Source: Hyalangium gracile
Lineage (GTDB): Bacteria > Myxococcota > Myxococcia > Myxococcales > Myxococcaceae
Direction: 5' to 3'
Assembly (NCBI RefSeq): GCF_020103725.1
Contig: NZ_JAHXBG010000019.1
Coordinates: 1 to 64,000 of the forward strand
Length of the DNA stretch: 64,000 nucleotides
How positions within the stretch are numbered: the stretch's first letter is position 1; each line of letters starts with the position of its first letter. This document shows positions 32,065-46,516 of the stretch, piece by piece. The position numbers and the translations under genes are program-made. The notes below the pieces were generated by a model. It did no database searches. It saw only the letters and a program-made list of their open reading frames with translations, and was not told where the DNA came from.

Positions 32065-34203
32065 CTATTCGAGCTGCTCTCGCACGACGGTGGTCCTACC
32101 TGGCTCCACCACCACCTTCACCGCCTTGATGGCGCCCAGCTCGCTGTTCACCAGCCGCAGCGTGTAGCTGCCCTCGTACACCTCGCGGGGCGCCAGCGGC
32201 GTGGTGCCCAGCTTCCGCTCGCCGATGTACACGTCCGCCCAGGGCCTGGCGTCCGCGGCGATCTTCCCCTTGCGGAACTCGATGGCGCTGCGGGTCTTCC
32301 CCTTGGCATCCACGTTCACCGAGGTCGTCTGGCGCAGGTCCAGCTCGGCGTTGACGAAGGTGAGCGCCACCTTGCCCGCCGGCAGCTTCACCGTGGTCGG
32401 CGTGCGCCCCAGCTTCTTGCCTCCGTAGAAGACATCCGCGGGCGGAGTGCTGGAGATCTCCACCTCGCCCGTCACGCCGTCCTTCCTGCCCTTCTTCGCG
32501 CGCGGATCCGAGGCCACCTCCGGCGTCGGCTCGAGCGCTGGCGCCGGCACGGCCTTGAGCGCGAGCTTCACCGGGACGGTCACCCCGGGCTCCACCTTCA
32601 CCGTGGCCGCCTCGTCCAGGTGGCCCGCGAGGCTCACGCGGATGAGGTGCTCCACCCCGGAGGCCACCTCCGGCAGCGTCAGCGGCGTGGTGCCCTCCTG
32701 GAGCTTCCCATCGAGCACCACCGCGGCCCCCGGCGGCTCGGTGACGAGCGAGATCGTCCCGGGCCGGGCCTGCTCGGGCGGCAGCAGCACGGAGACGGTC
32801 TTGCTCGCCGCCTGCCGGGTGAGCTTGACCGTCACCTCGCGGGCCTCGCGGCCCTCCTTCTGGACGCGCACGCGGATGTCCTGCTCGAGCGCCAGCATCC
32901 GCAGCGTGCCCGGCGTCTTCACCTTCGACTCCAGGCCATCCACCACCAGCGTGGCGCCCGGCGGATCGCTCTCCACCGTCAGCTCCCCCTCCACGGGGAC
33001 CGGCGGCTCCGAGGGCCGGGCGAGCATGAAGCCGAGCCCCACCAGCGCCACCAGCGCCAGCGCCCCCACGCCCGCCATCACCTTCTTGTTGCGGCCGCTG
33101 GGACGGCGCACCGCCTCCACCACATCCGAGCCCTGAGGGTCTCCTTCCCGCCGGGCGTTCGGGTCCGTGAAGCCGGACACCTGCGAGTTGCCGGTGCCGG
33201 TGCGGTGGCCCTGCTCGATGATGTCGACGAGCTGCTCGGGCCGGGCCGTGGGCAGCTCGCGCAGCAGCGCCTGGTAGGCGGCGTGCTCCTCGGCGAACAG
33301 CTCCAGCATGAAGCGCGAGACGTGGACGCTGGTGGGCGGCTCGGGCGTGCTGGCCAGGTACTTCTCCAGCGCCAGCTGCATCTCCTGGGCGCTGGCGTAG
33401 CGCTTGCGCCGGTCCTTCTGCAGCGCCTTCTCCAGAATCTCGTCCAGCGCCGGGGGCACGTCCGGGCGCAGCTCGGAGGCGGGGCGGACCTCGCCCTCGA
33501 GGATGTCCTGCATGATGGCCAGCTCGTTGTCGCGCTTGAAGAGCCGGCGGCCGACGAGGATCTCGTACAGCACGATGCCCAGCGCGAACACGTCGCTGCG
33601 GGCATCCAGCGGCACCGAGCGGATCTGCTCGGGGGACATGTAGCTGTACTTGCCCTTGAGCTTGCCGCCCTCCGTCTTGGTGCTGTGGGACTCGGCCTTG
33701 GCGATGCCGAAGTCCACCACCTTCACGCCGCCCTCGTAGGTGACGAGGATGTTGGAGGGGGACACGTCCCGGTGGACGATGTTCAGCGGGTTGCCCGCGT
33801 TGTCCTTGCGGGTATGCGCGTAGTGAAGCCCCTCGCACGCTCCGGCGACCAGCCGCGCGGCGATGGCCGGAGGCAGGGCCACCTGGGCGCGCTTGCCCTT
33901 GCGCAGGATGGCCAGAAGGTCATGCCCCGCGATGAACTCCATCGCGATGTAGAAAGAGGACTGCTCCTGCCCCAAGTCATAGATCTGCACCACGTTGGGG
34001 TGGTTGAGCGTGGCCGCCAGCCGCGCCTCGTCCAGGAACATCTGGACGAACTCCTTCTCGGTGGAGTGCTGGTCGAGGATCCGCTTGACGACCACGAGCT
34101 TCTCGAATCCCTGAAGCCCGAGCTGCTTGGCGAGCCAGATCTCCGCCATTCCGCCCACGGCGAGGCGCTTGAGCAGGAGGTACTTTCCGAACTGCTGGGT
34201 CAT
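32065..34203 (-). CDS. Transmembrane Ser/Thr protein kinase with PEGA repeats
   Basis: A 712-residue eukaryotic-like kinase. The catalytic domain occupies about residues 1-280, with a glycine loop LAVGGMAEIW, an ATP-binding lysine in VVKRI, catalytic HRDVSPSNIL and DFGIAK. A juxtamembrane linker follows, then one membrane helix (about 385-405), and a periplasmic part with about four PEGA repeats (for example VESDPPGATLVVDG, VTEPPGAAVVLDG, ISSTPPADVFYGG). The start is ATG 34203 (MTQQFGKYLLL); the frame is open a little further upstream. It heads an eight-gene co-directional run ending in the HEPN-like gene and could link an envelope signal to it, but the 75-bp gap before the ATPase gene leaves room for a separate transcript. 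Confidence 0.93.
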   Translation of the reverse strand: MTQQFGKYLLLKRLAVGGMAEIWLAKQLGLQGFEKLVVVKRILDQHSTEKEFVQMFLDEARLAATLNHPNVVQIYDLGQEQSSFYIAMEFIAGHDLLAILRKGKRAQVALPPAIAARLVAGACEGLHYAHTRKDNAGNPLNIVHRDVSPSNILVTYEGGVKVVDFGIAKAESHSTKTEGGKLKGKYSYMSPEQIRSVPLDARSDVFALGIVLYEILVGRRLFKRDNELAIMQDILEGEVRPASELRPDVPPALDEILEKALQKDRRKRYASAQEMQLALEKYLASTPEPPTSVHVSRFMLELFAEEHAAYQALLRELPTARPEQLVDIIEQGHRTGTGNSQVSGFTDPNARREGDPQGSDVVEAVRRPSGRNKKVMAGVGALALVALVGLGFMLARPSEPPVPVEGELTVESDPPGATLVVDGLESKVKTPGTLRMLALEQDIRVRVQKEGREAREVTVKLTRQAASKTVSVLLPPEQARPGTISLVTEPPGAAVVLDGKLQEGTTPLTLPEVASGVEHLIRVSLAGHLDEAATVKVEPGVTVPVKLALKAVPAPALEPTPEVASDPRAKKGRKDGVTGEVEISSTPPADVFYGGKKLGRTPTTVKLPAGKVALTFVNAELDLRQTTSVNVDAKGKTRSAIEFRKGKIAADARPWADVYIGERKLGTTPLAPREVYEGSYTLRLVNSELGAIKAVKVVVEPGRTTVVREQLE

Positions 34204-34316
34204 GTCGGACGCCACTGTATCGGAAGAGGGCTCCCCGAGCACAATCCGACCCAGGGAGGCGCGCCAGGGCCCGACTGCGGTAGGTTGGGCCCATCCGCCC
34301 TACCCACGGTCCCCCC

Positions 34317-37300
34317 ATGGCCCCACTCCCCCGCGCCATCGCCCCCCGCGTGCGCCTGCTGCTGCCAGCGCTCCTGCTGGTCGCCGCCGCCTGTCAGCAG
34401 TCCGAGTCGACCCAGACCGCGCCCTCGCTCCCTGCCCTGACGAGCGCCCGCCAGGGGCTGCTGCGCGTGCCCATCGACAACGCGGGAGACATCTTCCTGG
34501 GGCAGACGACGCCCACCTTCAATGCCATCAACCTGCTCGATGGCCGAGGGTTGAACGCGCCGGACGGCATCGCCCTGGACACCAGCGTGAGCCCGCCGCG
34601 CGTCTACGTGGCGGACACCGCCAACAGCCGCGTGCTGGCCTGGGCGGACGCCAACGCCTTCGCCAACGGGGACCCGGCGGACAAGGTCATCGGGCAGATC
34701 GACCCCTACCGCGGGGCCTGCGGCGCCACGGGAGTGAACGCCACCTCGCTGTGCACCCCCAGGGCCGTGGAGGTGGACCCCTCGGGCAACCTCTACGTCG
34801 CGGACACGGGCCACAACCGCCTCCTGTTCTTCACCGCCCCCTTCACCACGGACCTGGTGGCGGACCGCGTCTATGGCCAGAGCGGCAACTTCCTCACGGG
34901 CAGCTGCAACCAGGGAAGCACGCCGAGCGCCACCACGCTCTGCACTCCGGCGGGGCTGTCGCTGGATGGCGCGGGCAACCTGTATGTCTCGGACCAGGGC
35001 AACCACCGGGTGCTGCGCTTCGACGCGCCGCTCACGGACGTGGCGGCGGACGCGGTGCTGGGACAGACGGGCATGGCGGGCAACCTGCCCAACATCGTGG
35101 ACGCGCGCGGCCTGTCCAACCCGTCGCGCCTGGCCATCGACCGCAGCGTCACGCCCAACCGCATCTATGTGGCGGACACGGACAACCACCGGGTGCTGGG
35201 CTGGAGCAGCGCCACCGCCTTCACCAACGGGGCCCCGGCCGACCGCATCCTCGGCCAGCCGGACGCGGCCTCCAGCGGGTGCAACACGGGCGGCATCGGC
35301 CCCGGCACGCTGTGCTTCCCGCGCGGCCTGACGGTGGACGGCGCGGGCAACCTCTTCGTGGCGGACACCAACAACAACCGGGTGCTCGTGTTCGACGCGC
35401 CCTTCGCCAGCGACAAGCTGGCGGACAAGGTGTGGGGGCAGCCCTCCTTCACGGGCTCCACGTGCAACAACGGCGGCGTCGAGGCCCACACGCTGTGCAG
35501 CCCCTGGGGCGTGGCGCTGGACTCCACGGGCGGACTCCTCGTGGCGGACACCAACAACAGCCGGGTGCTCTACTTCGAGGGGGGCCGCTCCGGCGACACC
35601 ATCGCGGATGACGGGTTCGGCCAGGGCAACCCCACGGACACCACGTGCAACACCGGCGGCATCTCCGCGTGGACGCTGTGCAGCCCGCGCGGCGTGACGG
35701 TGGACGCGGCCGGCAACGTCTTCGTGGCCGACACCGGCAACTCGCGCGTGCTGGCGTACACGACCGCCACCGGGGACACGATGGCGGACGTGGTGTTCGG
35801 CCAGGCGAACATGACGGTGGCCACGTGCAACGCCACCGGCCTCAACAGCTCCTCGCTCTGCAACCCGGGCTCGGTGGCGGTGGACGGCGCGGGCAACGTC
35901 TGGGTGGGGGACGAGGGCAACTCTCGCGTGCTGGGCTACCAGACGCCGCTCACCACCAACACCGTGGCCGACAAGCTGGTGGGCAAGTCGAGCTTCACCT
36001 CCAGCACCTCCGCGTGCTCCGCCGCCTCGGCCTCGTGCCTCGTCACCTCCGCGCCCTCGGTGGCGGTGGATGTCGCCAACAACCTCTATGTCGCGGACAC
36101 CTCCGGCAACCGGGTGCTGGGCTTCAACGCGCCCTTCGCCACCGGCAACGACTCCACCGCCGATCGCGTCCTCGGCCAGACGGACTTCGCCAACACCGCG
36201 CGCAACTCCATCGACACCCAGGGCCTCAACGGGCCGGCGGGCCTCCACGTGGACCGCTCCTCCTCGCCCAACCGGCTCTACGTGGCGGACACCGCCAACA
36301 GCCGCGTGCTGGTGTGGAGCTCGGTGGCCTTCACCAACGGCCAGGCCGCCGCCCGCGTCTTCGGCCAGACCGACTTCGCCCGAGGCGTGTGCAACGGCGC
36401 CGGGCTGGGCGCCTCGAGCCTGTGCACCCCCGCGGACGTGACGACGGACGCGGCTGGCAACCTCTACGTCTCCGACACCAACGCCCGCGTGCTGGAGTAC
36501 GACGCGCCCTTCGCCACCGGCGGAGACACCGTGGCGGACCGCGTCTTCGGGCAGACGGCCTTCACCGGCAACACCTGCAACAGCGGCGGCGCCTCCGCAC
36601 TCACCCTGTGCGGCCCGAGGGGCCTCACGGTGAACTCCACCGGCAACGTGTACGTGGTGGACGGCGGCAACCACCGGCTGCTGCGCTACACCACGCCGCT
36701 GAGCACGGACCTCGTGGCGGACGCGGTGCTCGGGCAGATCGGCTTCCGCTACACCGGCGCCAACCTGGTGGACGGCACGGGCTTGTACAACCCCTACGCC
36801 GTGGCGATCGACGTGTCGGTGACGCCCAATCGGCTCTACGTGGCGGACTACTCGAACAGCCGCGTGCTCGCCTGGGCGGACGTGACGGCCTTCCAGACGG
36901 GCTCGCCCGCGGACCTGGTCCTGGGCCAGCCGGACCTGCTGACCTCCGGCTGCAACAGCCAGGGCATCTCCGCCTCCAGCCTCTGCCTGCCCACCGCCGT
37001 CTCCGTGGACGCGCAGGGCCGCGTCTACGTGGCGGACACCTCCAACAACCGCCTGCTGCTCTACAACCCGCCCTTCACCACCGACACCGTGGCGGACAAG
37101 GTGCTCGGCCAGGCGGACTTCACCCCCCGCACGTGCAATCGCGGCCTCTCCGCCCCGAGCGCCGCCACGCTGTGCGCTCCCTACGGCGCGGTGATGAGCC
37201 CGGCGCAGGAGCTCTTCGTCTCCGACCACGACAACAACCGCGTCCTGGTCTACGTGGACCCCTGGACCACGGACGCGACGGCCGACGCCGTGTTCGGCCA

Positions 37301-40300
37301 GGCGGGCAGCTTCATCACGGCCACGTGCAACCGGGGTGGCCGCTCGGCCAGCTCGCTGTGCGGGCCTGGCCAGCTCACCCTGGACACCACCGTGTCCACC
37401 CTGCGGCTGTACGTGGCCGACAGCGACAACAACCGCGTCCTCGAGTACGACGCGCCCCGCTCCTCGGACGCCGTCGCGGACCTCGTGCTGGGCCAGTCGT
37501 CGATGAGCGCCTTCACGTGCGCCGCGGGGCAGACGGGCCTGTGCGGCCCCCAGAGCATCGCGGTGGACGAGACGGGCAACGTCTATGTCGCCGACCGGGA
37601 ATCGGACCGCATCGTCCAGTACACCACGCCGCGGACCACCGACACGAGCGCGGACCGCCTCTTCGGCCAGGCCTCGCCCACCGGGAACTCGTGCAACGCG
37701 GGTGGCCTGGGCCCCACCTCCCTGTGCACCCTGCGCGGCGTGGCGCTGGACGCGGTGGGCAACCTCTACGCGGCGGACACCACCAACAACCGCATCGTCG
37801 TCTACCTCGCGAACAACCGCCCCACCGCCACGCCGCTCACGCTGACGCCGTCGTCGCCGACCACGACGGACACCCTCGTCGGCACGTACACCTACCAGGA
37901 CGCGGACGGAGACGCGCAGAGCGGCACCGAGGTGCGCTGGTACAAGAACGGCACGGAGCAGCCGGCCTTCTTCGGGACGCTGACGGTGCCTCCCTCGGCG
38001 ACGACGCGGGAGGAGCAGTGGTACTTCACCGTCCGCGCTCGCGACGGACTGGAGCCCGGACGGCTGGAGACGTCGAACCCGGTGACCATCCGCAACACGG
38101 CGCCGGTGGCGGCCACCCCCACCATCTCGCCTGCTCCGCCCCGGACGAACGACACCCTGTCGGCCAGCTACGGCTACTCGGACGTGGACAGCGACACCGA
38201 GAGCGGCAGCGAGATCCGCTGGTTCCTGAACAACGTGGAGCAGGCCGCGCTGCTCAACCAGCTCACCGTGCCCGCCTCGGCCACGACGAAGGGCCAGGTC
38301 TGGTACTTCACCGTGCGCCCGGGCGACGGCACGAGCCTGGGTACCAGCGTCACGTCCCCGGTGGTGACGATCGCCAACACCGCGCCCTCGGCGAGCAGCG
38401 TGCAGATAACGCCCGCCTCGCCGAGCTCCAGCTCCAGCCTGAGCGTCTCGTACACCTACGCGGACCCGGACGGCGACACGGAGCTGGGCTCGGAGATCCG
38501 GTGGTACCGCAACGGCGCGCTCCAGGCGTCCCTGAATGACCTGCGCACGGTGCCCGGGCCGCTCACGCTCAATGATCAGTGGTACTACACGCTGCGGCCC
38601 AAGGACGGCGCGGACCTGGGGACGGTGGTGACGTCCACCACGGTGGTGGTGGGCAGCTCCGCCCCCACGGTGACCAACGTCCGGGTGACGCCGGGCCCGC
38701 CGCGCACCGCGGACGACCTGGTGGCGAGCTACACGTACTCGGACCCGGACAACCAGCCAGAGACCGGCAGCCAGATCCGCTGGTTCAAGAACAGCATGGA
38801 GCAGACGGCCTATGCCAACCTCAAGACGGTGCCGGCCAGCGCCACCACCAAGGGCGACGTCTGGTACTTCACCGTCCGGCCCTGCGACAACACGCCCGTG
38901 TGCGGCGTGCTCCAGACCGCGCCCACGGTGACGGTGGCCAACACCGCCCCGTCCGTGGCTTCGCCCACCATCACCCCCGCCTCGCCCAAAGTCACCGACG
39001 CCCTCAGCGTCAGCTACACCTACTCCGACGCGGACAACGACGCGGAGAACGGCAGCGAGATCCGCTGGTTCAAGAACGGCGTGGAGCAGACGGCGCTGGC
39101 GGGCATGCGCACATTGACGGCGGGCACCGCGGCCAAGGGGCAGAACTGGTCCTATAGCGTCCGTCCGAGGGACGGCGCGGACTTCGGCACCCTGGTCAGC
39201 TCCACCACGGTGACGATCGGCAACAGCGCGCCTGGAGCCAGCCAGGCCGTCGTCGGCCCGGCCAATGCGCGCGTCACGGACACGCTGACCTCCACGTACC
39301 GGTACACGGATCCGGATGGGGATCCACAGTCCGGCTCCGTCCTGAGGTGGCTCAAGAACAACGTGGAGGACAGCTCGCTGCGCAACTCGCCCACGGTGCC
39401 GCCCTCCAAGCTGGCCAAGGGGCAGAGCTGGCGGTTCAGCGTCACGCCCTCGGATGGCACGGCGAGCGGCAGCACGGTCAACTCCAACTCGCTGGTCATC
39501 CAGAACTCGCCGCCCGTGGTGACCAACCTGACCATCAGCCCCGCCACGCCCAACGCGGGCGACGCGCTGACGGCCTCGTATGTCTACGCGGACGCGGACA
39601 CGGACGCGCAGGCCGGCAGCGAGCTGCGCTGGTTCAAGAACGGCGTGGAGCAGACGGCGCTCTTCGGAGCCAGCTCGGTGCCCGCGGGCGTCACCGCCAA
39701 GGGCGAGCGCTGGTACTTCACCGTCACTCCCCGGGACGGCTCGGTCTTCGGCACGCCGCAGTCCTCGGCCGAGGTCTCCATCGCCAACAGCGCGCCGCTG
39801 GCGAGCAGCCTCTCCATCCAGCCGGCCCAGCCGGGGACGGAGGACAACCTGGTGGCCACGTACACGTACCTCGACGCCGACGGAGACGTCGAGTCCGGCA
39901 CCGAGGTCCGCTGGTTCCGCAACGGCGTGGAGGTGCCCGGGCACTTCGGGCTGAAGACCCTGCCGGCCAGCGCCACCACCAAGGGGGAGAGCTGGTACGT
40001 CACGGTGAAGGCGAAGGACGGCACGGACTTCGGCCAGCTGGCCACCAGCGCGCCCGTGCTCATCCTCAACACGCCGCCCCGAGCGACCAACGTGAACCTC
40101 TCGCCGCTGTCTCCCAAGGCGACGGATCCGCTGGTGGCCAGCTACACGTACTCGGACGCGGACGATGACGCCCAGCAGGGCACCGAGCTGCGCTGGTACC
40201 GCAACGACACGGAGGTGGCCTCCCTCTTCAACCAGCCCACCGTCCCGGCTGGCACCGCCAAGGCCGGAGAGACGTGGTACTTCACGGTGAAGCCCAAGGA

Positions 40301-43300
40301 CGGAGTGGCCTTCGGCACGCTGGTGACCTCCACCTCGGTCATCGTGGGCAGCTCCGCGCCGGTGGCCACCGCCCTGCAGATCACCCCGTTCGCGCCCACC
40401 ACGCAGGACGTGCTGCGCGCCAACTACCTCTATAGCGATCCGGACGGCGAGCCGGAGTCCGGCAGCGAGCTGGAGTGGTCCCGCGATGGGAAGCCCGTGG
40501 CGACCCTGAACGGCAGCCAGACGGTGCCGCCCGGCACAGCGCGCAAGGGAGAGTCCTGGAGCTTCAGCGTGCGCCCCAAGGACGGCGTCTTCTTTGGAGC
40601 GAAGCAGACCTCCTCGCCGGTGGTGATCGGCAACACGCCGCCGTCCGCGGCCAGCGCCACCGTCAGCCCGGCGCAGCCGCGCACGGATGACGCGCTCTCG
40701 GCCAGCTTCACGTATGCGGACGCGGATGGAGACCGGCAGTCCGGCTCGGAGATCCGCTGGTACCGCAATGGCCTCGAGCAGCCCTCGCTGCTGGATCAGC
40801 CCGTGGTTCCGGCCTCGGCCACCCGCAAGCGCGAGGTCTGGTACTACCGCGTGCGCCCCAAGGACGGCACCGACTACGGCACCGCCGAGGTGTCGAGCCC
40901 CGTCTTCATCGAGAACTCTCCACCGGTGGCCAACGCCGGCCCGGACCAGACCATCCCTCCCACGTCCCGCGTGGTGCGGGTGACGCTGGACGGCACGGGC
41001 TCTCAGGACGTGGACGGAGACGTGCTCGACTACACCTGGTCCGAGGGGAACACGGTCCTCAGCCGGGGCGGTCGCGTCACCGTCGACCTGCCCGTCGGCG
41101 CGCACACCCTCACGCTCACCGTGGGCGATGGCGAGGGCTCGTCCACCGACGAGGTGCTCATCGACATCCCGGATCCGAAGCCCACCGCCACGCCGCCCGC
41201 GGACCGCACCCTGCCTCCTGGGCGGGTGTCGCTCGTCGGCACCGCGACGGATCCGCTGGGCCGCACTCCGGGCTTCCAGTGGACCCAGGTGGACGGCCCA
41301 CCGGTGGAGCTGCGTGACGCGGACAAGGCCACGGCCTGGTTCCTGGGCACTCGCGCTGGCGCGTACACCTTCGAGCTCGTCGCCGTCTCCGACAGCACTC
41401 CGAGCGATCCGGTGCGGACCACGGTGACCATTCGCAACCTGCCACCATGGGCCTCGGTGCCGACGCGGCACGTGGTGGAGGCGGGCACGGAGCTGACGCT
41501 GGATGGCTCCGGCAGCGACGATCCGAACGGAGACACGCTCACCTGGCGCTGGACGGTGGAGCTGGGCGAGACCACCTCCACGCTGGCGGACTCGGACCAG
41601 CCGACGGCTCGGCTCACGCCCACGTCCGACGGGCGCTACGGCATCGCCCTGGTGGTCAACGACGGCGAGACGGACAGTATGCCGACCTTCACGGAGGTGA
41701 TCGCCATCAGCCCCGCGGTCACCGCCCACGCGCCCGTCGCCCATGCCGGAGCGGACGGCGTCGGCGAGCTGGGCAAGCCCGTGAGCCTCGAGGGCCGTGG
41801 CAGCTATGACGTGGACGGCGATGCGCTGACGTACACCTGGCGGCGCATCTCGGGGCCCTCGGACGCTCCGGTGCCGGCCAACTCGGCCACGCCGACGTTC
41901 CGGGCCACGGGGGCAGGCACCGTGGTCATGGGCCTGACCGTGAGCGACGGGAAGGTCACCAGCCCCGAGGACACCGTCTCCTTCGAGATCGACGATCCGG
42001 CGGTGAACCGCCGCCCCATCTCCCGAGCCGGCTCGGATCGCTCCGTGGTGGTCGGCACGAACGTCCAGCTCGATGGCACGCGCAGCACGGACCCGGACGG
42101 CGACGTGCTCACGTACGAGTGGGCCCAGCTCTCCGGCCCCCGTGTGGAGCTCGATGACGCGCACGCGTCCCGCCCCACCTTCACGCCGACGCGAACGGGC
42201 TTCGTCCGGTTCGGGCTCATCGTGTCGGACGGCAAGAGCCGCTCCGCGCCCTCCAGCGTGCTCGTGCAGGTGACGAACGAGGGCAACCGTCCGCCGGTGG
42301 CCAGCGCCGGACCGGATCAGCAGGTGACCATCGGAGGAGTGGTGGCGCTGGATGGCTCGGCGTCCTCGGATCCGGACGGGAACACGCTGCGGTACGTCTG
42401 GGAGCAGGTCTGGGGCAGCCCGGTGGTGCTGGCGAGCCCCGGCGAGCACCCGACGTTCAAGCCGCCCGGGCAGGGCCGCTACCGCTTCCGCCTCACCGTC
42501 TGGGATGGAGAGACGCCCAGCGCGAGCGACGAGGTGGACGTGGTCGTGAGCACCCACGGCGCGGACAACAAGGCTCCGGTGGCCGTCACGGAGAACTATC
42601 TGGAGGTCGCGTTGGGAGAGAAGGTGCAGCTGAACGGGGCCGCGAGCCACGATCTGGATCCGCTCGACAGGCTCACGTACGAGTGGACGGTGTCGGGCTT
42701 CCCCACCGGCAGCGAGCCCGCGCTGGAGAACGCGGCCACCGCGACGCCGTCCTTCACGCCCACGGTGGCGGGCGCATACACGGCGCGGCTGCGCGTCTCG
42801 GATGGAGACCTGACCAGCGCGCCGTCCTACGTGACGGTGCTGGTCCGCTCTGACTCCAAGGGAGGCCTGGGCTGTGGAGCCGGCGGTGGTGCTCCCCTGC
42901 CGCTGGCGGCGCTGCTGCTCCTGCTCGTCCGAGGAGCGCGGCGCGGAGCCGTGCTCACCCGAGGCGCACGCATGTTTGCCGCGCGAGGCCTGGCGGTGCT
43001 TCTCGCGCTGGGCGTGGCCTGGGCTCCCATGCGAGCAGGAGCCGAGGTCGCGACGACGGCAACCAAGCCTCGGAAGAAGAAGGTCCCCACCGCTAAGTCG
43101 ACCACTGGGAAGTCACCCACCGGCAAGCCAGCATCAGGCAAGCTCGTCCCGGGCAAATCCGCCGCTGGCAAGAAGGGAAAGAAGAAGAAGCCCGCGCTGG
43201 ATGCTCCCGTCGAAGTGCCAGTGCCCCCTGTCGAGGAAGTGGGCCCCGAGCCCTCGCAACCGATGGAGGAGCCTCCCACGGTGACGCCGGAGGCCGCGGT

Positions 43301-44129
43301 GACGCCCGAGGCCGCCGCCGCGCCTCCCGCCCAGGAGACGACGACGCCCCCGACCGAGGGGCCGCCCAACCCGTACCTGGAGGAGGCGCGCCAGCTCTAC
43401 CTGGGCTTCCAGTTCGAGGGCATCATCCCCAAGCTGGAGTTCGCGCTCGCGGTGAAGGGAGTGACGGAGGCCCAGCGGATCGAGATCTACCAGCTGATGG
43501 CGCTGACCCACTCCGCCTTCGACGACGCGGTCAAGGCGGAGGAGGCCTTCCTGCACATCCTGGAGCTGAAGCCGGACTACGCGCTGACGGGTGGAGCCTC
43601 GCCGAAGATCCGCTCGTACTTCGCGAACGCGCAGAAGACGTACCGCGCGCGCCTGGCGGTGAAGCTCCAGCACGCCCCGCCCAAGCCCAGCATGCTGGGC
43701 GAGACGACGACGGTGGACGTGGCGGTGGTGGTGGGCGAGGACCGCGTCACGGCGATGACGCTGCACTACCGGCCTCGGGGAAAGAGCGGCTACTCGCAAT
43801 TGTCGATGGCGCGGGGCGAGCATGGCGCCTTCTCCGGCAACGTGCCCAACGCCTTCCCGGGCCCGGCGGGCAAGCGGACCATCGAGTACTTCGTCCGGGC
43901 GCGTGACGCGAGTGGCGCTCTGCTGGCCTCGGTGGGCTCGGAGGAGACGCCGCTGGAGCTGACGATGGAGACGGTGGAGGTGGCGACCTCTCAGCCGCTG
44001 TACAAGAACTGGGTGTTCTGGACGGCCGTGGGAGTGGGAGCCGCCGCGGCGGCCGTGGCCACGCCGGTGCTGCTCAACCGGAGCGCCGAGGTACGGCCCG
44101 GGACGCTCGGAATGGAGCCACTCAAGTGA
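34317..44129 (+). CDS. Giant surface lipoprotein: NHL, Ig-like and PKD-like repeats, fused in frame to a second exported protein
   Basis: A 3270-residue open frame. The signal peptide ends in LLVAAAC, with Cys26 lipidated. Then come 18 NHL-type beta-propeller repeats, 11 Ig-like repeats, about 7 PKD-like repeats, and a glycine-cysteine MYXO-CTERM-like anchor (GLGCGAGGG, Cys2853) followed by a Leu-rich helix and Arg cluster. Normally such a protein would stop here. Instead the frame continues without a stop into a second signal-like helix at Met2886 and a further 385-residue protein. Either this is a true fusion, or a stop was lost: CGA at 42960-42962 would be TGA with one C-to-T change. Its role is probably adhesion or cell-surface binding. 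Confidence 0.85.
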   Translation: MAPLPRAIAPRVRLLLPALLLVAAACQQSESTQTAPSLPALTSARQGLLRVPIDNAGDIFLGQTTPTFNAINLLDGRGLNAPDGIALDTSVSPPRVYVADTANSRVLAWADANAFANGDPADKVIGQIDPYRGACGATGVNATSLCTPRAVEVDPSGNLYVADTGHNRLLFFTAPFTTDLVADRVYGQSGNFLTGSCNQGSTPSATTLCTPAGLSLDGAGNLYVSDQGNHRVLRFDAPLTDVAADAVLGQTGMAGNLPNIVDARGLSNPSRLAIDRSVTPNRIYVADTDNHRVLGWSSATAFTNGAPADRILGQPDAASSGCNTGGIGPGTLCFPRGLTVDGAGNLFVADTNNNRVLVFDAPFASDKLADKVWGQPSFTGSTCNNGGVEAHTLCSPWGVALDSTGGLLVADTNNSRVLYFEGGRSGDTIADDGFGQGNPTDTTCNTGGISAWTLCSPRGVTVDAAGNVFVADTGNSRVLAYTTATGDTMADVVFGQANMTVATCNATGLNSSSLCNPGSVAVDGAGNVWVGDEGNSRVLGYQTPLTTNTVADKLVGKSSFTSSTSACSAASASCLVTSAPSVAVDVANNLYVADTSGNRVLGFNAPFATGNDSTADRVLGQTDFANTARNSIDTQGLNGPAGLHVDRSSSPNRLYVADTANSRVLVWSSVAFTNGQAAARVFGQTDFARGVCNGAGLGASSLCTPADVTTDAAGNLYVSDTNARVLEYDAPFATGGDTVADRVFGQTAFTGNTCNSGGASALTLCGPRGLTVNSTGNVYVVDGGNHRLLRYTTPLSTDLVADAVLGQIGFRYTGANLVDGTGLYNPYAVAIDVSVTPNRLYVADYSNSRVLAWADVTAFQTGSPADLVLGQPDLLTSGCNSQGISASSLCLPTAVSVDAQGRVYVADTSNNRLLLYNPPFTTDTVADKVLGQADFTPRTCNRGLSAPSAATLCAPYGAVMSPAQELFVSDHDNNRVLVYVDPWTTDATADAVFGQAGSFITATCNRGGRSASSLCGPGQLTLDTTVSTLRLYVADSDNNRVLEYDAPRSSDAVADLVLGQSSMSAFTCAAGQTGLCGPQSIAVDETGNVYVADRESDRIVQYTTPRTTDTSADRLFGQASPTGNSCNAGGLGPTSLCTLRGVALDAVGNLYAADTTNNRIVVYLANNRPTATPLTLTPSSPTTTDTLVGTYTYQDADGDAQSGTEVRWYKNGTEQPAFFGTLTVPPSATTREEQWYFTVRARDGLEPGRLETSNPVTIRNTAPVAATPTISPAPPRTNDTLSASYGYSDVDSDTESGSEIRWFLNNVEQAALLNQLTVPASATTKGQVWYFTVRPGDGTSLGTSVTSPVVTIANTAPSASSVQITPASPSSSSSLSVSYTYADPDGDTELGSEIRWYRNGALQASLNDLRTVPGPLTLNDQWYYTLRPKDGADLGTVVTSTTVVVGSSAPTVTNVRVTPGPPRTADDLVASYTYSDPDNQPETGSQIRWFKNSMEQTAYANLKTVPASATTKGDVWYFTVRPCDNTPVCGVLQTAPTVTVANTAPSVASPTITPASPKVTDALSVSYTYSDADNDAENGSEIRWFKNGVEQTALAGMRTLTAGTAAKGQNWSYSVRPRDGADFGTLVSSTTVTIGNSAPGASQAVVGPANARVTDTLTSTYRYTDPDGDPQSGSVLRWLKNNVEDSSLRNSPTVPPSKLAKGQSWRFSVTPSDGTASGSTVNSNSLVIQNSPPVVTNLTISPATPNAGDALTASYVYADADTDAQAGSELRWFKNGVEQTALFGASSVPAGVTAKGERWYFTVTPRDGSVFGTPQSSAEVSIANSAPLASSLSIQPAQPGTEDNLVATYTYLDADGDVESGTEVRWFRNGVEVPGHFGLKTLPASATTKGESWYVTVKAKDGTDFGQLATSAPVLILNTPPRATNVNLSPLSPKATDPLVASYTYSDADDDAQQGTELRWYRNDTEVASLFNQPTVPAGTAKAGETWYFTVKPKDGVAFGTLVTSTSVIVGSSAPVATALQITPFAPTTQDVLRANYLYSDPDGEPESGSELEWSRDGKPVATLNGSQTVPPGTARKGESWSFSVRPKDGVFFGAKQTSSPVVIGNTPPSAASATVSPAQPRTDDALSASFTYADADGDRQSGSEIRWYRNGLEQPSLLDQPVVPASATRKREVWYYRVRPKDGTDYGTAEVSSPVFIENSPPVANAGPDQTIPPTSRVVRVTLDGTGSQDVDGDVLDYTWSEGNTVLSRGGRVTVDLPVGAHTLTLTVGDGEGSSTDEVLIDIPDPKPTATPPADRTLPPGRVSLVGTATDPLGRTPGFQWTQVDGPPVELRDADKATAWFLGTRAGAYTFELVAVSDSTPSDPVRTTVTIRNLPPWASVPTRHVVEAGTELTLDGSGSDDPNGDTLTWRWTVELGETTSTLADSDQPTARLTPTSDGRYGIALVVNDGETDSMPTFTEVIAISPAVTAHAPVAHAGADGVGELGKPVSLEGRGSYDVDGDALTYTWRRISGPSDAPVPANSATPTFRATGAGTVVMGLTVSDGKVTSPEDTVSFEIDDPAVNRRPISRAGSDRSVVVGTNVQLDGTRSTDPDGDVLTYEWAQLSGPRVELDDAHASRPTFTPTRTGFVRFGLIVSDGKSRSAPSSVLVQVTNEGNRPPVASAGPDQQVTIGGVVALDGSASSDPDGNTLRYVWEQVWGSPVVLASPGEHPTFKPPGQGRYRFRLTVWDGETPSASDEVDVVVSTHGADNKAPVAVTENYLEVALGEKVQLNGAASHDLDPLDRLTYEWTVSGFPTGSEPALENAATATPSFTPTVAGAYTARLRVSDGDLTSAPSYVTVLVRSDSKGGLGCGAGGGAPLPLAALLLLLVRGARRGAVLTRGARMFAARGLAVLLALGVAWAPMRAGAEVATTATKPRKKKVPTAKSTTGKSPTGKPASGKLVPGKSAAGKKGKKKKPALDAPVEVPVPPVEEVGPEPSQPMEEPPTVTPEAAVTPEAAAAPPAQETTTPPTEGPPNPYLEEARQLYLGFQFEGIIPKLEFALAVKGVTEAQRIEIYQLMALTHSAFDDAVKAEEAFLHILELKPDYALTGGASPKIRSYFANAQKTYRARLAVKLQHAPPKPSMLGETTTVDVAVVVGEDRVTAMTLHYRPRGKSGYSQLSMARGEHGAFSGNVPNAFPGPAGKRTIEYFVRARDASGALLASVGSEETPLELTMETVEVATSQPLYKNWVFWTAVGVGAAAAAVATPVLLNRSAEVRPGTLGMEPLK
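34545..37815 (+). repeat. Eighteen NHL-type repeats within the giant protein
   Basis: Each unit contains a variant of YVADTxNxRVL followed by an aromatic residue, about 60 residues apart, usually with a CNxGG...LC pair before it. NHL repeats build beta-propellers, so this would be several propellers in a row, likely stabilised by disulfides. Confidence 0.88.
37818..40920 (+). repeat. Eleven Ig-like repeats of about 95 residues
   Basis: Each unit has a pattern such as TNDTLSASYGYSDVD, then GSEIRWFxN, VPASATTKG, WYFTVRP and a closing VxIxNxAP linker. Neighbouring units are highly similar, which suggests recent expansion by unequal recombination. Confidence 0.85.
40921..42850 (+). repeat. About seven PKD-like repeats
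   Basis: Units begin PPVANAGPDQ or similar and contain VxLDGxGSxDxDGDxLxYxW, the PKD/REJ-like signature, about 85-100 residues each. They form a stalk before the C-terminal anchor. Confidence 0.82.
42858..42950 (+). other. MYXO-CTERM-like sorting signal inside the giant frame
   Basis: A glycine-rich motif with one cysteine (GGLGCGAGGGAP), then a Leu/Ala membrane helix (LPLAALLLLLV) and Arg-rich tail (RGARRGA). This is the tripartite layout recognised by myxobacterial sorting systems. Here it is internal, not terminal. Confidence 0.7.
42972..44129 (+). other. Downstream exported protein, same frame as the giant lipoprotein
   Basis: From ATG 42972 (Met2886 of the long frame) the sequence reads as a self-contained 385-residue exported protein: a signal-like helix MFAARGLAVLLALGVAWAP, a Lys/Gly/Ser/Thr/Pro-rich disordered region, an Ala/Pro/Glu linker, a TPR-like helical part (YLEEARQLYLGFQFEG), a beta-rich domain and a C-terminal membrane helix (WVFWTAVGVGAAAAAVATPVLL). 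GAGG at 42961-42964 gives a ribosome-binding site seven bases before the ATG. So it may be translated alone, as part of the fusion, or both. The next gene overlaps its stop by 4 bp. Confidence 0.55.
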
Positions 44130-44515
44130 GACGCGCCGCGCGGAGGAGCCAGATAGGACTGGCCTTGGGACTGCTGCTGCTGCTGGGAGCGTGCGGCAAA
44201 GGCGCGGTGTTCCTCACCATCGAGGCCGAGGGCCCCGAAGGGACACTGCGCATCCCGGACGATGTGGACCGGGTGGCGGTGCGGGTGACGAACGTGGAGG
44301 GCACGGCGGTCCTGCTCGAGAAGGAGTACGCCCTCACCGGAGACAATCGCTTCCCGCTGACGCTGGGGCTGGAGCCCGGCCCCGAGACGGGCGAGCTGAT
44401 CCGCGTGGAGGTGACCGCCTTCAAGGGCGAGGAGACGGTGGGCGATGCCGCGGCGGTGGTGTCCATCACACGGCAGCAGGAGGCCGCCGTGACGCTGCGG
44501 ATCATGAAGACCTGA
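44126..44515 (+). CDS. Small lipoprotein coupled to the giant surface-protein gene
   Basis: A 129-residue exported protein with a lipobox LLLGAC (Cys about 23). The mature part looks like one beta-sandwich domain (FLTIEAEGPEGTLRIPDDVDRVAVRVTN). The start is GTG 44126, which overlaps the stop of the upstream giant frame as GTGA, so the two are translationally coupled. Function unknown; the coupling suggests a partner of the surface protein or of its fused C-terminal part. Confidence 0.82.
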   Translation: MRRAARRSQIGLALGLLLLLGACGKGAVFLTIEAEGPEGTLRIPDDVDRVAVRVTNVEGTAVLLEKEYALTGDNRFPLTLGLEPGPETGELIRVEVTAFKGEETVGDAAAVVSITRQQEAAVTLRIMKT

Positions 44516-44578: not shown

Positions 44579-45142
44579 CTAGACCTCCTCGAACCTTGTG
44601 CCTGTGGCTCCCATGCCCTCCAAGGCGTCCTTGATCTCCCCTGAGACGATCAGCGGGCCCGTCCACCCCTCGCATCGGAACACCTGTGCGCTTCCCACCT
44701 TGGCCTTGTCGATGCGCATGTCACGCACGGAGGCATACTGCCCGACCTTGTGAGGCACTCCGTCCTCGTGCGTCCAGAGTTCGATCCGGGACGCCTTCTC
44801 GTCGATACAGCGGATGAGGCGTGTGGCTACGAGGATGAGGTACTGATCCGGTTGGCCCACCACGTCCACGGGGATCAGTTGCACCTCGTCCGGGGCCAAC
44901 TCCGCGAACATGGACGCGACCCGGACATGGACCACCGGGATCATGATTCCCGCCTCTGTGAAGTCCAGCGGCGTGCCCGCGATCTCGACGGAAATTCTCA
45001 AGCGGTCCGTGATGTGGACGGGCGTTCCGAGCCTGAACTGCCCGTCATCCACCTGTCGACCCTGACTGTCTGTCGGCGTGTCGAGGTCCCAACGGTGCAG
45101 GACCTTCAGATCGTCAGCGAGTCTGAAGAAACGCTTGCTCAT
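44579..45142 (-). CDS. Immunity protein, Imm11/DUF1629-like
   Basis: A 187-residue soluble protein, 9 bp downstream of the toxin gene. The overall pattern (short N-terminal strands, central VDVVGQPDQYLILVATRLIRCID, ending in ALEGMGATGTRFEEV) matches the Imm11 (DUF1629) immunity family common in myxobacteria, whose C-terminus typically reads 'ALE..G.TG.RF'. It has no signal peptide, so it would neutralise toxin delivered into the cytoplasm. The identity of the family is by eye; the position next to a toxin supports it. Confidence 0.8.
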   Translation of the reverse strand: MSKRFFRLADDLKVLHRWDLDTPTDSQGRQVDDGQFRLGTPVHITDRLRISVEIAGTPLDFTEAGIMIPVVHVRVASMFAELAPDEVQLIPVDVVGQPDQYLILVATRLIRCIDEKASRIELWTHEDGVPHKVGQYASVRDMRIDKAKVGSAQVFRCEGWTGPLIVSGEIKDALEGMGATGTRFEEV

Positions 45143-45151
45143 GGACTCCGT

Positions 45152-46516
45152 TTATCGCGGCTTGGATCGGGTGACGAGTTGGTTGAGTTCTGTTCCCGGC
45201 GTGGCGATCTGCCTGGCCAGTTTCCGGAGTCGGGCCGTCAACGCCTCACGGCACAGCGCGACGCTGCGACATGTCACTGTTGCATCGGCAAGTTCATCCA
45301 AGATGATCTGGTGATACCGCTCGGGGTGCGGTCCGTAATGGCCGGGGAGAGGCATCTTGTTCGCCGGATCATCCATCGACATTCCCGCCTTGGCGAAGAT
45401 GCGGCGGAATCGCGGCGTCCACGGGCCCCCGCGCGCTGTGGACTTGTCGTTGCAGACGGTGGCGATGTGGTGCGTCTCTATGCAAGGGCCCGTGCCGCCA
45501 TTGCCACTGGCCCCCATCATCATCGCGGTGGCGGCCACCGTCACGCTCACCCCCTCCTTCGTCAGCGCGATCTCCTCCACCGCCCCCAGTGCGGGCAGAG
45601 AGATACCTGCTTGCCCCTCGGCCTGCATGGCCACCTGCGCCGAGCCGGGCAGCGTCGGTACCTTCGCCGCGAACAGTTGCGCCGTCGAGCCAATGGCCGC
45701 CACCAGCAGCATGGCGAACGCGCGCGCGGCCTCTCGCCCGAGAATCCTACCGAAGCGCTCGCCTGCCTCGCGGATCTCCTCGAAGGTGGTGGCGGCCTTT
45801 ACCGTCTCCGTCAACTCGGCCCAGCCCGCCACGAGACGGCGGAGCGTGTCGTAGCCCACATACAGCAGCATCCCGACGCCCAGCACCGCCACCAACCCCG
45901 GCGCCGCGGGATTGAGGAGCATGATCAGCAGCATGGAACCCAACGTCCACAGGGCCGCGCTGATGAGCGCTCGGAATTCCACCATCTCTCCGAGTGCCTG
46001 TTTCATCTCGTCCAGCACGGGGCTCTTGCTCATGGCCAGCGCCCAGACGTAGCGGCCATGCATGTCCAGGTAGCGCCCACCCACCAGCGCGCCCCCAAGA
46101 CAGTCTCCGTAGAAGTTGTAGGCGCTCCGGCACCACAACCGGTAGCGTTCCGCCAGCGCCAGTTCCTCTTTCGTCAGCGTGCCTTCCCAGGGCTCGCCGG
46201 GCCCTGCCGGCACCAGCTTCTGCTCGCTGCCCAGCCAGAGATAGTCGCCGGACTGCGGGTCCATCTGAAACGCCTTCTCCGCTGTCTGGCGTGGCGAGCC
46301 TGTCAGCCGCACCTCATGCGCAAGGCGCCTGACGGCCTGCTGGAACTCCTCTTCCTCCAGCTCCACTGGTTGCAGGTCAGCCGTGCGGGGAACATGGACG
46401 ATGGCTTTGCCCTGACGGGTGCCCTCCACGAGTGGGACCCGAGGGACGCTGGCGCACCCCACGAGCAACACGAGGAACAGCGCTTCGGCCTTCCAGAGAA
46501 CGCTCCACGGCAGCAT
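45152..46516 (-). CDS. SitA-like lipoprotein toxin with AHH-type nuclease domain
   Basis: A 454-residue polymorphic toxin. The N-terminus is a signal peptide with lipobox LLVGC (Cys21), and two hydrophobic segments lie mid-protein (about 185-222 and 262-285), as in SitA-type toxins that Myxococcus passes between sibling cells by outer-membrane exchange. The C-terminal domain (about 340-454) resembles the AHH nuclease family: ETHHIATVCND (347-357) with the paired histidines, then GHYGPHPERYH (392-402). It is predicted to cut DNA or RNA in the recipient. The immunity gene follows at once. The transfer route is inferred from the lipoprotein architecture; TraA-type genes are not in this window. 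Confidence 0.85.
   Translation of the reverse strand: MLPWSVLWKAEALFLVLLVGCASVPRVPLVEGTRQGKAIVHVPRTADLQPVELEEEEFQQAVRRLAHEVRLTGSPRQTAEKAFQMDPQSGDYLWLGSEQKLVPAGPGEPWEGTLTKEELALAERYRLWCRSAYNFYGDCLGGALVGGRYLDMHGRYVWALAMSKSPVLDEMKQALGEMVEFRALISAALWTLGSMLLIMLLNPAAPGLVAVLGVGMLLYVGYDTLRRLVAGWAELTETVKAATTFEEIREAGERFGRILGREAARAFAMLLVAAIGSTAQLFAAKVPTLPGSAQVAMQAEGQAGISLPALGAVEEIALTKEGVSVTVAATAMMMGASGNGGTGPCIETHHIATVCNDKSTARGGPWTPRFRRIFAKAGMSMDDPANKMPLPGHYGPHPERYHQIILDELADATVTCRSVALCREALTARLRKLARQIATPGTELNQLVTRSKPR

Follow-up and report, generated by a model that had tools for sequence, protein, structure and literature searches.

A single open reading frame in the window, that is, the whole 64,000-nucleotide stretch of Hyalangium gracile DNA analysed here, joins two predicted exported proteins across an internal sorting signal and a second signal peptide. 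With moderate confidence, the frame is proposed to encode a preprotein of 3270 residues from which two exported proteins mature, a myxosortase cutting after the first (protein A) and signal peptidase I before the second (protein B). The open frame is conserved in relatives, both signals are present in its sequence, the genome encodes the myxosortase MrtX, and the same architecture recurs in other gene pairs. The features of the region are the following.

34317-44129, plus strand: single open frame of 3270 codons, stop-free up to the terminal stop at 44127-44129
34317..34391, plus strand: signal peptide of protein A, lipoprotein type, MAPLPRAIAPRVRLLLPALLLVAAA before C (read from the sequence)
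34392..42854, plus strand: body of protein A, NHL repeats and then Ig/PKD-type repeats (Pfam)
42855..42944, plus strand: internal MYXO-CTERM-like sorting signal, SKGGLGCGAGGGAPLPLAALLLLLVRGARR (TIGR03382 score; Cys invariant in three orthologues)
42930..42989, plus strand: basic loop joining the two hydrophobic helices, RGARRGAVLTRGARMFAARG (sequence and three-genome alignment)
GTG 42951, CGA 42960-42962, GAGG 42961-42964 and ATG 42972, plus strand: landmarks within the loop
42990..43043, plus strand: second, internal signal-peptide-like helix, LAVLLALGVAWAPMRAGA before E (AxA in three orthologues; stand-alone homologues)
43044..44126, plus strand: protein B, with a K/P-rich linker, TPR-like helices and an Ig-like beta domain (AlphaFold2)
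about 44001-44081, plus strand: C-terminal hydrophobic segment of protein B
44126..44515, plus strand: downstream gene C, a small predicted lipoprotein, VRRAARRSQIGLALGLLLLLGAC before GK (read from the sequence)

Conservation of the fused frame and its surroundings

Among the 39 genomes searched, H. gracile included, a full-length match was found in two relatives. Hyalangium versicolor H56D21 (G006) carries a stop-free frame of 3278 codons with 84% identity, and the Myxococcaceae metagenome-assembled genome (MAG) Zod_Metabat.575 (G002) carries one of 3261 codons with 80% identity. A codon alignment of the three genomes contains neither a stop nor an indel between the Cys of the sorting signal and the AxA site of the second signal peptide. 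Amino acid identity is 0.80-0.82 across the last 85 columns of protein A ahead of the junction, and protein B shares 88% and 81% identity with its counterparts in the two relatives. Conservation is lowest in the loop, at an identity of 0.37-0.47 compared with 0.88-0.95 in the core of protein B. Four of the seven genus genomes (G001, G003, G004 and G005) have no match to protein B at an E value of 1e-8 or better, and the fusion with this TPR-type partner is confined to the three related genomes among those searched.

The open frame at the junction should be read with caution, since a neutral simulation gave a probability of 0.80-0.87 per lineage that the 19-codon loop contains no stop; taken alone, the absence of a stop from three genomes therefore carries little weight. 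The case is built instead on the conserved second signal peptide and on the recurrence of the architecture in unrelated gene pairs. Estimates of dN/dS, on segments of 18-26 codons, were too noisy for use. Among the loci examined, which covered the distant B homologues themselves, no relative had A and B as separate adjacent genes, and the direction of change, fusion or split, can be judged only indirectly.

Protein A corresponds to the first 2846 residues of the fused frame, and its Pfam matches are NHL repeats (2.3e-87, eleven stretches) and a K319L-like PKD family (1.1e-73). Its lipobox Cys codon lies at 34392-34394, and the lipobox, AAC before QQ, also occurs in H. versicolor and the MAG. 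Protein A carries this Cys at one end and the MYXO-CTERM Cys (42873-42875) at the other, both kept in the two relatives; judging from these two predicted lipid-type sites, the mature protein might be lipidated at both ends. Antisense to nearly all of protein A runs an open frame of 2816 codons (34200-42650, minus strand), probably a by-product of high GC content and repeats.

The neighbouring genes were also compared. The start of gene C overlaps the stop codon of the fused gene in the sequence GTGA, an arrangement shared by both relatives, in which the product of gene C is 80-81% identical over 102 amino acids. On the other side, a Ser/Thr kinase with PEGA domains (32065-34242, minus strand) divergently adjoins the fused gene; it is 90% identical to both relatives over the 299-318 residues compared and is a candidate regulator. 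The fused gene is also adjoined by the gene of a SitA5-type polymorphic toxin, a lipoprotein whose nuclease domain is of the AHH type (45152-46516, minus strand; NF050093, 300 bits; PF14412, 1.6e-19), together with an Imm11-type immunity gene that comes after it on this strand (44579-45142, minus strand; 1.5e-12).

The internal tag, the basic loop and the second signal peptide

The internal tag contains the motif GLGCG, whose Cys codon at 42873-42875 is invariant in the codon alignment of the three orthologues, followed by the helix LPLAALLLLLV and the Arg-rich tail RGARR, both read from the sequence. It shares the Cys signature, hydrophobic helix and Arg tail of ordinary MYXO-CTERM proteins (TIGR03901/TIGR03382), whereas its position differs: such tags are C-terminal, and this one lies 394 codons ahead of the stop. 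The window tag scored 16.2 bits against TIGR03382, above the cut-off of 15.85, and 12.7 bits against TIGR03901, below the cut-off of 20. The corresponding H. versicolor segment reached 19.9 with TIGR03901, only just below the cut-off, and 12.4 with TIGR03382, also below it, and no MYXO-CTERM model was among the matches listed for the MAG orthologue. Because the profile scores straddle the cut-offs, the assignment is based on the architecture (Cys, helix and Arg) together with a marginal score. The myxosortase MrtX (NF040593) was found above cut-off in all seven genus genomes, including that of H. gracile.

Between the tag helix and the second helix lies a loop of 20 residues, made up of the tail end of the MYXO-CTERM signal and the n-region of the second signal peptide. 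It contains 5-6 Arg and no acidic residue in all three orthologues. The second helix shows, as judged by eye, the features of a signal peptide: a basic n-region, a hydrophobic h-region and an AxA site, and its hydrophobic core is kept in all three genomes. The residues before the Glu at the end of the helix are AGA, ASA and AGA. Since the AxA is conserved, it is taken as a site for signal peptidase I, with a predicted cut after 43043.

The sequence details that the sequence-only reading had described hold: a frame (here 34317-44129) running past a MYXO-CTERM-like signal into a second protein, with that signal about 400 codons before the end (394 by count), and a second signal-like helix, which corresponds to a hydrophobic stretch at 42990-43046 that ends in AGA followed by E. 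Its remark that a C-to-T change at 42960 would give TGA is correct, CGA occupying 42960-42962. The polyprotein topology, which it had offered as an alternative, gains support from the charge of the loop (5-6 Arg, no acidic residue) and from the occurrence of the same junction elsewhere.

The second signal peptide is internal to the open frame, and the loop holds in-frame start candidates. The restart that the sequence-only reading had assigned to protein B, ATG 42972 with a GAGG site 7 bases ahead (42961-42964), is present in the window and fails as a conserved feature: the ATG is replaced by GTG in one relative and by AGG in the second, and in the three-genome alignment GAGG is absent at this position from both. 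Another in-frame start codon (GTG, ATG and GTG) lies within about one codon of 42951 in all three orthologues. A purine-rich stretch precedes it in one of them, and the MAG codon has no clear Shine-Dalgarno site by eye.

Protein B matched no Pfam family. Its AlphaFold2 model, built from only 3 sequences, has a mean pLDDT of 56.5, with block values of 56-87 across residues 111-310, and a PDB fold search with this model returned partial, mostly Ig-like matches at a query TM-score of about 0.2. At this low confidence, the model points to helical repeats together with a beta sandwich. Profile matches to protein B occur in 50 of the 96 genomes of the family, a count that includes the three close copies, and the frames of the distant homologues are mostly about 260-700 codons long. 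A clear N-terminal signal peptide was seen by eye in 27 of 31 distant homologue loci (L044 is doubtful); for these, a script chose whichever in-frame start gave the N-terminus of greatest hydrophobicity, which biases the count towards finding signals, and the script picked a wrong start in L058, L059 and L070. As 27 of the 31 N-termini show such a signal, the internal helix of the fused frame sits where stand-alone relatives of protein B carry their signal peptide.

Recurrence of the junction in other gene pairs

Internal tags were surveyed with TIGR03901 in the three fusion genomes, scoring 150 candidates per genome and measuring the distance from each tag to the stop. Among the 94 above-cut-off matches listed, 83 meet a stop no more than 60 residues from the match start, and 8 lie inside their frames, each running directly into a second signal peptide and a further protein (L081, L126, L135, L138, L145, L161, L165 and L170). 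The other three have longer tails that lack a second signal (L102, L133 and L172). Two more such junctions (L180 and L186) appear among the next 16 matches listed below the cut-off, a set from which the orthologue of the window fusion in H. versicolor (19.1 bits) was left out; the window's own copy and that of the MAG fall outside the matches listed.

The downstream partners at these junctions are unrelated to one another and include OmpA-type barrels as well as Kelch proteins with a second signal of the lipoprotein type. For instance, an OmpA-type copy (L194) matches PF00691 at 1e-21, and the downstream protein of L081 has TSP3 repeats (Pfam) and, by eye, an OmpA-like end. OmpA-type relatives occur in 90 of 96 family genomes. 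Fused junctions were present in 14 of the best 30 loci and in 78 of 80 further rows (exceptions L296 and L357), although these rows were chosen mostly for long frames, so that 78/80 is no population rate. Additional rows gave 15 of 18 (exceptions L371, L380 and L381), two of the 18 being deliberate stand-alone controls, and an extra row of the L081 type (L382) is fused too. Many of the counted junctions are orthologous and thus not independent. The OmpA-type fusions span 11 genera of the family and extend beyond it to three genera in two other families of the order (L364-L367, in G038, G034, G143 and G028). Stand-alone copies in the same protein family have their own start and a similar signal end, AxA before Q.

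An OmpA-type locus in G051 (L222) has an upstream frame that retains only the tail end of the MYXO-CTERM-like stretch (MAVPFPGRRRRALPARS); it may be a fusion that has split or a duplicate that has decayed.

Start codons were scanned in 92 of 94 OmpA-type junction sequences (the 80 rows and the 14 fused loci), the two omitted being those that are not fused. In 71 of the 92, the basic loop contains no ATG, GTG or TTG when it is taken to begin one codon ahead of the first Arg and to end where the uncharged stretch with the second helix begins. When the scan was extended as far as the residue that opens the 10-residue core of highest hydrophobicity, 41 of 92 were start-free, and none was when it reached the cleavage site. 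An internal start in the 71 start-free loops would give a signal peptide devoid of basic residues, which is possible, though unlikely. The two Kelch-type junctions of the MAG (L145, G002:C141, and L161, G002:C386) have loops free of start codons, and a third Kelch junction (L255, G043) has one in its loop. A seemingly stand-alone Kelch counterpart with a similar lipobox is found in G042 (L256).

Proposed maturation route, alternatives and known systems

In the proposed route, a single translation product, its membrane topology and both cuts are what we infer from the arrangement of signals. The N-terminal signal would start the export of protein A, and the internal MYXO-CTERM helix would act as a stop-transfer segment, running from outside to inside. 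With the Arg-rich loop remaining in the cytoplasm, the two helices would form a hairpin (out-in, then in-out) in which the second signal peptide restarts export from inside to outside. MrtX may then cut at the MYXO-CTERM Cys, leaving protein A lipid-anchored and displayed on the surface, and signal peptidase I may cut after AGA (43043), freeing protein B into the periplasm, where it is perhaps held by its own C-terminal hydrophobic segment.

The reading that the sequence-only analysis had put forward, a recent stop loss in A or a sequencing or assembly error that leaves the fused frame meaningless, is extremely improbable. It draws on the CGA at 42960, one transition away from TGA, and on the simulation, in which a neutral loop would often remain stop-free. 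The same fused frame nevertheless occurs in two relatives at 80-84% identity, and conserved fusion in relatives was the very observation that the sequence-only reading had set against stop loss; the architecture, moreover, recurs in unrelated gene pairs. An assembly error is refuted by the separate assembly of the two relatives, and a fresh stop loss was rejected on the lack of a stop at the junction in any of the three orthologues. An unlikely explanation is that protein B is made mainly by in-frame internal initiation in the loop, at GTG 42951 or ATG 42972, with A-B read-through as a by-product. The well-formed signal peptide of protein B, its stand-alone homologues, the GAGG 7 bases upstream of ATG 42972 and the start codons near 42951 in three orthologues would all fit such initiation, as would the presence of some start codon before the cleavage site in 92 of 92 parsed OmpA-type junctions, the hydrophobic stretch included. 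However, neither ATG 42972 nor its GAGG is conserved, the MAG by eye lacks a clear Shine-Dalgarno site ahead of its codon near 42951, and with no stop between A and B, ribosomes completing A should continue into B. In addition, the 71 OmpA-type junctions that are start-free in the loop, and the 41 that are start-free up to the hydrophobic core, would yield signal peptides that lack basic residues if translation began internally.

It is also unlikely that the product persists as a single chain, either uncut, with the helices forming a membrane hairpin that tethers B to A, or cut by myxosortase only. The charges do fit a hairpin topology, and the MYXO-CTERM match is marginal; on the other side stand the AxA site kept in three orthologues and the OmpA-type barrels, which would presumably have to leave the inner membrane before an outer-membrane barrel can form. 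A Myxococcus xanthus protein, MXAN_5598, is named, in the available part of PMC4158809, in the protein list of the section on mass spectrometry of outer-membrane vesicles, which likewise argues against a chain retained uncut or cut once.

An internal MYXO-CTERM is already published, as a rare case, in MXAN_5598. According to the available part of PMC11980579, the tag of this protein is internal, and its authors suggest a fusion of two genes and N-terminal processing. As in the fused gene described here, a large adhesin-like N-terminal part is followed by an internal MYXO-CTERM and a second envelope protein in frame; its second half differs, being an outer-membrane barrel with OmpA, unrelated to the TPR/Ig-like protein B (PMC11980579, available part). 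The OmpA-type family of the present survey would include MXAN_5598, matched through its published description and not by sequence. No description of a second signal peptide behind its tag was found in the available part of PMC11980579, and the terms 'second signal' and 'polyprotein' have 0 occurrences in the main text of that paper. The same source, as far as available, shows cleavage of MYXO-CTERM tags by MrtX, both in M. xanthus and in E. coli (PMC11980579).

Two further systems offer partial parallels. In the TraA/TraB pair of myxobacteria, a MYXO-CTERM surface protein is genetically coupled to an OmpA-type partner, as here, although TraA and TraB are two overlapping open reading frames and the present gene is one frame (PMC11980579, available part). 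In Haloferax volcanii, HVO_0405 is a naturally occurring two-gene fusion that is cleaved in vivo at an archaeosortase site near its middle, and this central sorting-signal cleavage site resembles that proposed for the fused gene (PMC7157517, available part). It belongs, however, to the archaeal PGF-CTERM/ArtA system, and the available part of that paper describes no second signal peptide behind the tag (PMC7157517). No bacterial polyprotein split by a sorting enzyme and a signal peptidase was found in the titles and abstracts searched, as far as these were available. Measured against the available parts of these sources, three things are new here: a partner of the TPR-like kind, a second signal peptide that recurs behind the tag, and a spread far beyond one atypical protein.

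Taken beyond the window, the preprotein reading leads to a broader proposal, for and against which the chances appear evenly balanced. Under this proposal, a modular junction, consisting of a MYXO-CTERM helix, an Arg loop and a second signal peptide of the signal peptidase I or lipoprotein type, would turn one chain into two separately localised envelope proteins in a fixed ratio, with myxosortase cutting on one side of the junction and a signal peptidase on the other. It would have arisen for at least three unrelated partners, namely OmpA-type barrels, Kelch lipoproteins and the TPR-type protein. Such a junction offers a clean in vivo test of Sec restart on an internal signal peptide behind a sorting-signal helix. 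If the proposal is true, annotating these frames as single proteins misleads, and the recurrent junction would couple the expression of a surface protein to that of its envelope partner and export the two as a pair.
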